Part shown: piece after piece, positions 10,486-11,699 of the stretch
How positions within the stretch are numbered: position 1 is the first letter of the stretch
How the letters are laid out: each line of letters begins with the position of its first letter
Source: Candidatus Bathyarchaeota archaeon A05DMB-4
Lineage (GTDB): Archaea > Thermoproteota > Bathyarchaeia > Bathyarchaeales > SOJC01
Assembly: GCA_019685575.1 (NCBI GenBank)
Contig: JABFQO010000002.1
Location: forward strand, 62,001 to 126,000
Direction: 5' to 3'
DNA: 64,000 bases
The notes under the pieces: generated by a model
Databases searched by the model: none
What the model saw: the letters and a program-made list of their open reading frames with translations, nothing else
What the model was told of the DNA's origin: nothing
Program-made: the position numbers and the translations under genes

Positions 10486-10830
10486 TTAATTGTTTTTTCT
10501 TTCTATTATTTCTTGGATTTCTTCAAGTTTGGTGGCAACTTGGACGCCTTTTTCGGTGAGTTTAATTACGCGTCTCCACGGGAAATCTTTCTGTGTTTCT
10601 TCTTGAATGAGATTGGTGTCTTTCAAACGTTTTATTATTCCGTAAATAGTTTTTTGGCCGCCTTTTATTTGCCATCTTATGTGACTGATGGGTACGCTGC
10701 CTTCTTTGTGTAAGAAGATTAGAAATCGGATTGTACGGGTATGTTCTAAAACCTCTATACTCACCTTCTCTCCCGTCTTTATTGTTGATGCTTTTGTCTT
10801 ATTAAGGGTTGCCAAATGTTGTATACCCAT
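10486..10830 (-). CDS. Winged-helix transcriptional regulator
   Basis: A 114-residue winged-helix protein. The recognition region reads SHIRWQIKGGQKTIYGIIKR (about 49-68), followed by a wing (WRRVIKLTEKG) and a C-terminal helix that could dimerise. The protein is basic and lacks an obvious ligand-binding domain, so it may act as a simple repressor. Its upstream region carries two perfect palindromes, one touching the start codon and one over the TATA element, which is the classical layout for autoregulation. A candidate structured RNA is read in the opposite direction from the same region. The target regulon is unknown. Confidence 0.8.
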   Translation of the reverse strand: MGIQHLATLNKTKASTIKTGEKVSIEVLEHTRTIRFLIFLHKEGSVPISHIRWQIKGGQKTIYGIIKRLKDTNLIQEETQKDFPWRRVIKLTEKGVQVATKLEEIQEIIERKNN

Positions 10831-10846
10831 TTTAGGTAACCTAAAA
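10830..10846. promoter_or_regulatory. Perfect 17-bp palindrome at the regulator start codon
   Basis: TTTTAGGT-A-ACCTAAAA, an 8+1+8 perfect inverted repeat. It begins on the first base of the regulator's ATG and covers the inferred mRNA start. It is a likely operator for the adjacent winged-helix protein. The left half TTTTAGGTAAC recurs just upstream of malic enzyme (26687-26697). Confidence 0.5.
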
Positions 10847-10861
10847 CGAAAATAAGATTTT

Positions 10862-10880
10862 TATAGAACAATGTTCTATA
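10862..10880. promoter_or_regulatory. Perfect 19-bp palindrome overlapping a two-way TATA element
   Basis: TATAGAACA-A-TGTTCTATA, a 9+1+9 perfect inverted repeat. Its left arm is part of TTTTTATAG, which reads as a TATA box in both directions. One direction would start the regulator mRNA near 10838 and the other a transcript near 10889, exactly where the candidate structured RNA begins. A dimeric winged-helix protein bound here could block both. Confidence 0.6.
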
Positions 10881-10888
10881 TCATTGTT

Positions 10889-10975
10889 GGTGCGGGGTCG
10901 CGTCTCATAGTTAATCAGTATGGCGAGAATGGCGCGATAGTCTCCTTTCCTTTCTCCCGCACCTTTCTTTTTTCG
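10889..10975 (+). ncRNA. Candidate structured small RNA or 5' leader upstream of deoC
   Basis: An 8-bp closing stem GGTGCGGG (10889-10896) pairs with CCCGCACC (10956-10963). Inside, TCGCG (10898-10902) pairs with CGCGA (10933-10937) and TCTC (10903-10906) with GAGA (10925-10928), capped by a 3-bp extension and a 9-nt loop. An 18-nt pyrimidine-rich strand completes it. A T tract (T3CT6) follows at once. The inferred TATA box predicts a start at 10889. The 75-nt size recalls tRNA, but there is no T-loop motif or anticodon arm. It is either a free small RNA or a leader/attenuator for deoC, whose start is 52 nt beyond the T tract. Confidence 0.45.
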
Positions 10976-11027: not shown

Positions 11028-11699
11028 ATGATTTCCCGGAAAGAATTAGCGAAAATGATTGACCACACTAACGTGAAACCAACAGCTACAACAGACGATA
11101 TTAAACTATTGTGCAACGAAGCGATTAAATACGGGTTCAAATGTGCCGTGATAAATCCTACGTATGTGCCTTTGGCAGTGAAGTTGTTGAAAAATTCAGA
11201 GGTGTCTGTTTGCTCCACCGTGGGATTTCCTTTAGGCGTCACTCTACCCGAAGCGAAAGCTTGTGAGGCGCGAATACTCGCTGAAAGCGGTTGCAAAGAA
11301 TTGGACATGGTGATTAACCTTAGCGCCTTAAAGTCTAAAGATTACACGACGGTGAAAAACGATGTCAAAGCTGTTGTCGACGTAAAACGATCATATCCCG
11401 ACTTGATAATTAAGGTAATCATCGAAACCGGCTATCTTACGGATGAAGAGAAAATTGTCGCGTGCAAATTGTGCAAAGAAGCCGGTGCGGATTTTGTGAA
11501 GACTTCCACGGGGCTTTTGGTGGGCAAAGCCACGGTCGAGGATGTTCGTCTCATGCGGAAAACAGTAGGCGACAAGATGGGAGTAAAAGCCTCAGCAGGA
11601 ATAAGAACCCTAAAAGATGCCTTGGCCATGATAAAAGCTGGCGCCAACAGAATCGGAACCAGCACGGGCGTTCAAATAATCGAAGAGATTAAAGAGTAA
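11028..11699 (+). CDS. deoC: Deoxyribose-phosphate aldolase
   Basis: A 223-residue class I aldolase of normal DeoC size. With ATG 11028 as the start, which puts the family's opening helix (ELAKMIDHT) near residue 10, Asp93 (ELDMVIN), Lys158 in DFVKTSTG (Schiff-base lysine) and Lys187 in GVKASAGIRT are all in place. It splits 2-deoxyribose-5-phosphate into glyceraldehyde-3-phosphate and acetaldehyde, in nucleoside salvage or breakdown. A longer start at TTG 11001 is possible but not conserved. The M29 peptidase gene follows after 17 nt. The upstream structured element may control the pair. Confidence 0.93.
   Translation: MISRKELAKMIDHTNVKPTATTDDIKLLCNEAIKYGFKCAVINPTYVPLAVKLLKNSEVSVCSTVGFPLGVTLPEAKACEARILAESGCKELDMVINLSALKSKDYTTVKNDVKAVVDVKRSYPDLIIKVIIETGYLTDEEKIVACKLCKEAGADFVKTSTGLLVGKATVEDVRLMRKTVGDKMGVKASAGIRTLKDALAMIKAGANRIGTSTGVQIIEEIKE

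Follow-up and report, generated by a model that had tools for sequence, protein, structure and literature searches.

Three probable small RNA genes in an archaeal genome and their predicted pairing with a cohesin/PKD mRNA start

A 75-nt element in the window (the whole stretch of DNA analysed, 64,000 nucleotides, G000:C19:62001-126000 of a 1.53-Mb genome in 20 contigs) is very probably, to judge by its sequence, a genuine small RNA gene, with two related copies elsewhere in the genome. These lie on contigs C20 and C17, and the three measure 75 nt (window), 73 nt (C20) and 105 nt (C17). We take the genome to be archaeal from its PRK04439-type methionine adenosyltransferase, which is the archaeal type, and its TATA-type promoters. 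What we observed directly is the set of three copies, with conserved ends, a conserved core and a conserved TATA-box placement, and a complementarity to one mRNA that is well above that of shuffled sequences. We regard a three-copy small RNA family, taken alone, as highly probable. The fuller proposal, that this is a lineage-specific family of trans-acting antisense RNAs that would repress translation initiation on the mRNA of a cohesin/PKD surface protein, we consider evenly poised as a whole statement. The features are collected in Table 1.

Table 1. Positions of the features of the window copy, its neighbours and the two other copies
Feature	Position	Strand	Basis or remark
Divergent winged-helix regulator, weak PadR/HxlR-like	10486..10830	-	Pfam PadR 20.6, HxlR 19.3 bits
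TATA-box octamer TTTTTATA	10858..10865	+	31 nt before the first base of the RNA
Perfect palindrome TAGAACAATGTTCTA	10864..10878	.	0 mismatches; sole such site in the window
Window copy of the small RNA gene, 75 nt	10889..10963	+	Matched to the C20 and C17 copies by covariance model and BLAST
Closing stem, 5' arm GGUGCGGG	10889..10896	+	Same sequence in 3/3 copies
Antisense block 1 CAGUAUGGCGAGAAUGGCGC	10916..10935	+	20 contiguous pairs; codons shortly past the cohesin/PKD start
Conserved core GGCGAGAATGGCGCGATAGTCTCC (family form GGCGRGAAYGGCGCGATAGTYTCC)	10922..10945	+	Three-copy alignment
Antisense block 2 UCCUUUC	10943..10949	+	Predicted to pair with GAAAGGA immediately 3' of the AUG
Closing stem, 3' arm CCCGCACC	10956..10963	+	Final 7 nt same in 3/3; eighth pair G-C to G-U once
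T tract TTTCTTTTTT	10964..10973	+	Sequence; absent after the other two copies
deoC, deoxyribose-phosphate aldolase	11028..11699	+	TIGR00126, E 1.2e-81; 64 nt past the RNA end
C20 copy, 73 nt	G000:C20:96580-96652	-	Own-genome search
C17 copy, 105 nt	G000:C17:151034-151138	-	Own-genome search

Conserved ends, core and TATA spacing in the three copies

A BLAST search of the genome with the window element alone recovered the other two copies at E 8e-9 and 0.008. A covariance model matched them at E 1.7e-13 and 6.1e-12, values that come from a model built from all three copies, including the two it then matched; exactly three copies fell below E 1e-11. The window element reads GGTGCGGGGTCGCGTCTCATAGTTAATCAGTATGGCGAGAATGGCGCGATAGTCTCCTTTCCTTTCTCCCGCACC, with the T tract next. 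In the alignment, all three copies begin with GGTGCGGGG, end with CCGCACC and share the 24-nt core GGCGRGAAYGGCGCGATAGTYTCC, and between these blocks they vary in sequence and length. Their flanks are unrelated, the TATA octamer excepted. Finding two more copies in the same genome places the element beyond chance.

The sequence-only reading of this DNA had described an 8-bp closing stem, a second, bulged stem, a T tract and a TATA element predicting a start at 10889, and had proposed looking for compensating base changes in both stems. The stretch 10889-10975 folds at -27.9 kcal/mol (z -2.99; 4 of 200 shuffles were equally good), and its opposite strand gives z -2.2. The closing stem of GGUGCGGG and CCCGCACC is present in the predicted fold of the window copy with pair probabilities of 0.98-1.0, and on the three-copy alignment all of its pairs form in each copy, seven of them without any change and the eighth with one change from G-C to G-U. 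Because it contains no compensatory change, covariation speaks neither for nor against it. The inner stem is predicted in the window copy but is not a family trait, since only 54.5% of its cells are paired on the alignment and six of its eight pairs are broken in some copy. RNAalifold agreed on the closing stem and, within the core, found no more than short invariant pairs. Thus the closing stem was kept, nearly invariant, and the inner stem was not conserved. The T tract lies at 10964-10973 and is a probable transcription terminator of the window copy, but it is not common to the family, as the C20 copy continues into ATGTTTTG and the C17 copy into ATGCCAAACAATG. Of the earlier description, then, the closing stem, the T tract and the TATA octamer stand, whereas the inner bulged stem fails as a family property.

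An octamer resembling CTTTTATA starts at -31 in the window and at -32 in each of the other two copies, and none of 20,000 joint dinucleotide-shuffled sets of upstream sequences scored as high at this position. A TATA octamer 31 nt upstream has the right spacing for an archaeal start at or beside 10889, in agreement with the start predicted earlier. Its conserved place fixes the strand and predicts that the RNAs start at or beside their first G.

We considered whether the three copies are instead mobile or repetitive DNA, a MITE-like palindromic repeat without an RNA function whose inverted ends are terminal repeats. The inverted ends of 8-9 bp and the three dispersed intergenic copies, confined to one genome, are what such a repeat would leave. 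Inspection revealed no flanking duplications, however; the conserved blocks are split by unrelated segments of unequal length, so that decay has not been uniform; and each TATA box sits beyond the repeat at a fixed spacing, amid flanking bases that otherwise differ. We therefore judge a MITE-like origin improbable.

The genes beside the copies bear on whether the element is an independent small RNA or a leader that governs transcription of deoC and the peptidase, both of which had been put forward from the sequence. In the window, deoC runs in the same direction as the RNA, with its start codon 64 nt beyond the RNA end and the T tract in between, an arrangement that a cis-acting leader or attenuator of a deoC-M29 peptidase operon might have. 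The genes downstream of the C20 and C17 copies, in contrast, are convergent, and no co-directional gene is found there, so that these two copies stand alone, as expected of archaeal intergenic small RNA genes, and are not leaders. The alternative inner stem is also not conserved, and we hold the leader explanation to be very unlikely. An independent small RNA is the supported alternative: the three copies are dispersed, agree in their ends, core and TATA position, and in two cases lack a co-directional gene downstream. Control of deoC and peptidase transcription is unsupported for the family, of which the window copy alone precedes deoC. Read-through from the window copy into deoC is possible but would not be a family trait. 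deoC itself had no match among 12 other genomes of the same family, and the locus may have been acquired, or widely lost elsewhere.

DNA and covariance-model searches of 60 relatives, 257 genomes of the class and 398 of the phylum returned nothing convincing beyond the three copies, and pattern scans of GTDB genomes and IMG/VR gave GC-rich chance matches without the surrounding architecture. Rfam 15, at gathering and relaxed thresholds, returned nothing relevant for the window element (a tRNA-Cys elsewhere in the window; about 14 bits as the best local score, on the other strand) and nothing at the C20 and C17 copies, and the earlier remark that the element matches no known RNA class holds against this database. 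A tRNA was ruled out by the Rfam search and inspection, and inspection also rejected an H/ACA RNA (no ANA box after the stem) and a C/D RNA (C and D boxes absent). Our best reading is that the family is lineage-specific and matches no described family tested here.

The core and its aligned copies contain a tandem 9-nt repeat, AYGGCGRGA AYGGCGCGA (10921-10938 in the window), and the C17 copy carries the identical U-to-C change in both repeats. A mini-ORF, AUG-GCG-AGA-AUG-GCG-CGA-UAG, was discarded, as the C17 copy has ACG at both AUG positions. A match at L008 lies within a coding region and was set aside as chance. The plus-strand stretch G000:C20:23849-23917, flanked by a peptidase-like gene and one for an ABC ATPase, holds a core-like GGCGATGAATGGCGCGGTTGTTTCC, then a strong hairpin and a run of eight T (covariance-model E 0.37); it is a weak candidate for a fourth relative, or may be another small RNA or leader.

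Complementarity to the start of a cohesin/PKD gene

Using the window element as the query, we found that the best non-family match in its own genome is C20:144946-144982 (E 2.8e-5, 41.9 bits). The C20 element matched the same site at E 0.008, and a search with the C17 element gave no match there. The site is antisense across the first codons of a minus-strand gene for a secreted cohesin/PKD protein. When the element was replaced by 16 dinucleotide shuffles in the same genome, the matches reached at most 29.2 bits, compared with 41.9. These target statistics rest on own-genome searches and selected genome stretches.

Duplex prediction paired CAGUAUGGCGAGAAUGGCGC of the window RNA with GCGCCAUUCUCGCCAUACUG of the cohesin/PKD mRNA over 20 contiguous pairs. 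The C20 RNA formed 15 and 11 pairs with the target, its second block being 11 nt long, and the C17 RNA formed a weaker duplex of the same two-helix layout, so that all three cores gave two similar helices around an unpaired GAUA. Relative to segments of the same genome, the duplex energies of the cores with the target had z-scores of -8.3 (window), -6.2 (C20) and -3.4 (C17), which are inflated by selection because the target was picked as the best in the genome; a fair assessment rests on the E-value and the shuffle control. The site ranked first among same-genome segments for the window and C20 cores, and the energy of the full-length C17 copy was ordinary (z -1.5). Because the three cores are of shared descent, their pairings are not three independent observations; partly independent evidence comes from bases peculiar to one copy, CAGTAT in the window and the end of block 2 in C20.

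The element has a predicted promoter of its own, as read from the DNA, and complementarity to an mRNA encoded on another contig, as would be expected of a trans-acting archaeal intergenic small RNA. In the mechanism that we propose, three paralogous genes, each independent, would give rise to RNAs closed by the pairing of GGUGCGGG with CCCGCACC at their ends, with the shared core inside. The core would act in trans on the first cohesin/PKD codons through two antisense blocks joined by the unpaired GAUA linker, and pairing that includes the bases directly after the AUG would block translation initiation. We infer transcription, pairing in vivo, repression and the role of the winged-helix regulator (below) from sequence. 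Some findings weigh against an antisense function: part of GAUAGU, which belongs to the most strongly conserved bases, is left out of the pairing; the C17 copy pairs weakly with the cohesin/PKD mRNA; and the predicted inner stem of the window copy would hide part of the core. The complementarity could also have been left behind by an inverted duplication of the cohesin/PKD gene start.

The conservation of GAUAGU suggests another role, such as protein binding. It is conceivable, if somewhat unlikely in our estimate, that the core of a three-copy small RNA family serves to bind other RNAs or a protein, the latter for instance by way of the tandem motif AYGGCGRGA AYGGCGCGA, and that the cohesin/PKD match is incidental or a relic. 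The best conserved stretch, GGCGCGATAGT, runs through GATAGT, part of which is left unpaired in the proposed duplex; the second base is changed from U to C in both 9-nt repeats of C17; and the weak C17 pairing would also be accounted for. Yet the cohesin/PKD match scores far higher than the shuffled controls, falls exactly over the start codon region and reaches into the window-specific CAGTAT, all of which argue against this alternative.

On one side of the target gene is a gene for a beta-helix protein with a dockerin, and on the other side one for an SBP_bac_5 solute-binding protein, whose C terminus looks dockerin-like by eye. The surrounding stretch, G000:C20:141767-147634, is a cluster of secreted cohesin/PKD, dockerin and SBP_bac_5 proteins.

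A GH3-family gene of the relative G003 (L020:1501-1537) contains a core-like stretch (E 0.76), and the GH3 gene of the present genome (L006:1666-2805) adjoins the C17 copy. Duplexes with this own GH3 gene were moderate (-35.3, -31.3 and -20.2 kcal/mol for the window, C20 and C17 core, respectively), and we set it aside as a target, the resemblance being probably a coincidence.

Relation to known archaeal small RNAs

To our knowledge, few archaeal intergenic small RNAs have a known target, and we know of no regulatory RNA elsewhere for a cohesin/dockerin surface system. The present family offers an internal replicate, in its three copies, and a specific predicted target at a start codon; if the antisense proposal is true, it would provide a regulatory RNA for such a system.

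The closest known case is RNA-257(1-4) of Sulfolobus solfataricus, a set of paralogous intergenic RNAs whose common core, of transposase-gene origin, pairs with the 3' UTR of a transporter mRNA and so leads to its decay (Martens et al. 2013, PMC3674436). Both families consist of paralogous intergenic RNAs of unequal length (here 73, 75 and 105 nt) with a common core that is complementary to one mRNA, at a target site limited to one species. They differ in that RNA-257 acts on a 3' UTR and on decay, whereas the site of the present family is the start of a coding region. We found no transposon origin for the present core; its own genome holds no further notable match beyond the cohesin gene start. 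If the proposal is true, this would be a second, independently evolved case of paralogous antisense RNAs in archaea.

The Methanosarcina mazei sRNA154 and sRNA41, which are tied to nitrogen metabolism and have been proposed to mask ribosome binding sites (review PMC5867862), resemble the present RNAs, by description rather than by sequence, as intergenic archaeal small RNAs proposed to act in trans. Unlike in those cases, the pairing predicted here covers post-AUG bases and early codons, not a clear ribosome binding site. The Haloferax volcanii s479 and sRNA132 are likewise stand-alone archaeal small RNA genes with regulatory effects, as described in the abstracts of PMC8155600 and PMC6560208; these abstracts, compared by description, mention no three-copy family. 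By analogy, the present family would work like RNA-257, sRNA154 and sRNA41, if our reading of the pairing holds.

Candidate operators and a divergent regulator at the window copy

The palindrome TAGAACAATGTTCTA between the TATA box and the RNA start occurs only in the window copy, and from its sequence it is a possible repressor operator of the small RNA promoter. A repressor bound there, just past the TATA box, may set the expression of this copy, and it could be the divergent winged-helix protein, for which both the PadR and the HxlR score are under the curated Pfam cut-offs. Another perfect palindrome, TTTTAGGTAACCTAAAA at 10830-10846 of the window, overlaps the start of the winged-helix gene and is a possible autoregulatory operator, again a candidate by sequence.

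The window and C20 copies lie near M29 peptidase genes, a location that is suggestive only of a link between the family and peptide use. We offer as a tentative and fairly unlikely extension that paralogous antisense RNAs with their own promoters, one of them apparently controlled by the winged-helix protein, form a new archaeal RNA family and converge on one cohesin-type mRNA start and couple peptide-breakdown genes with the cohesin/dockerin surface system.

For the winged-helix regulator, we found one distant match, in one order-level relative. A second relative of its gene lies in the genome studied here, at G000:C14:9930-10226, with 36% identity and two TAA stops inside, and is perhaps a broken paralog.
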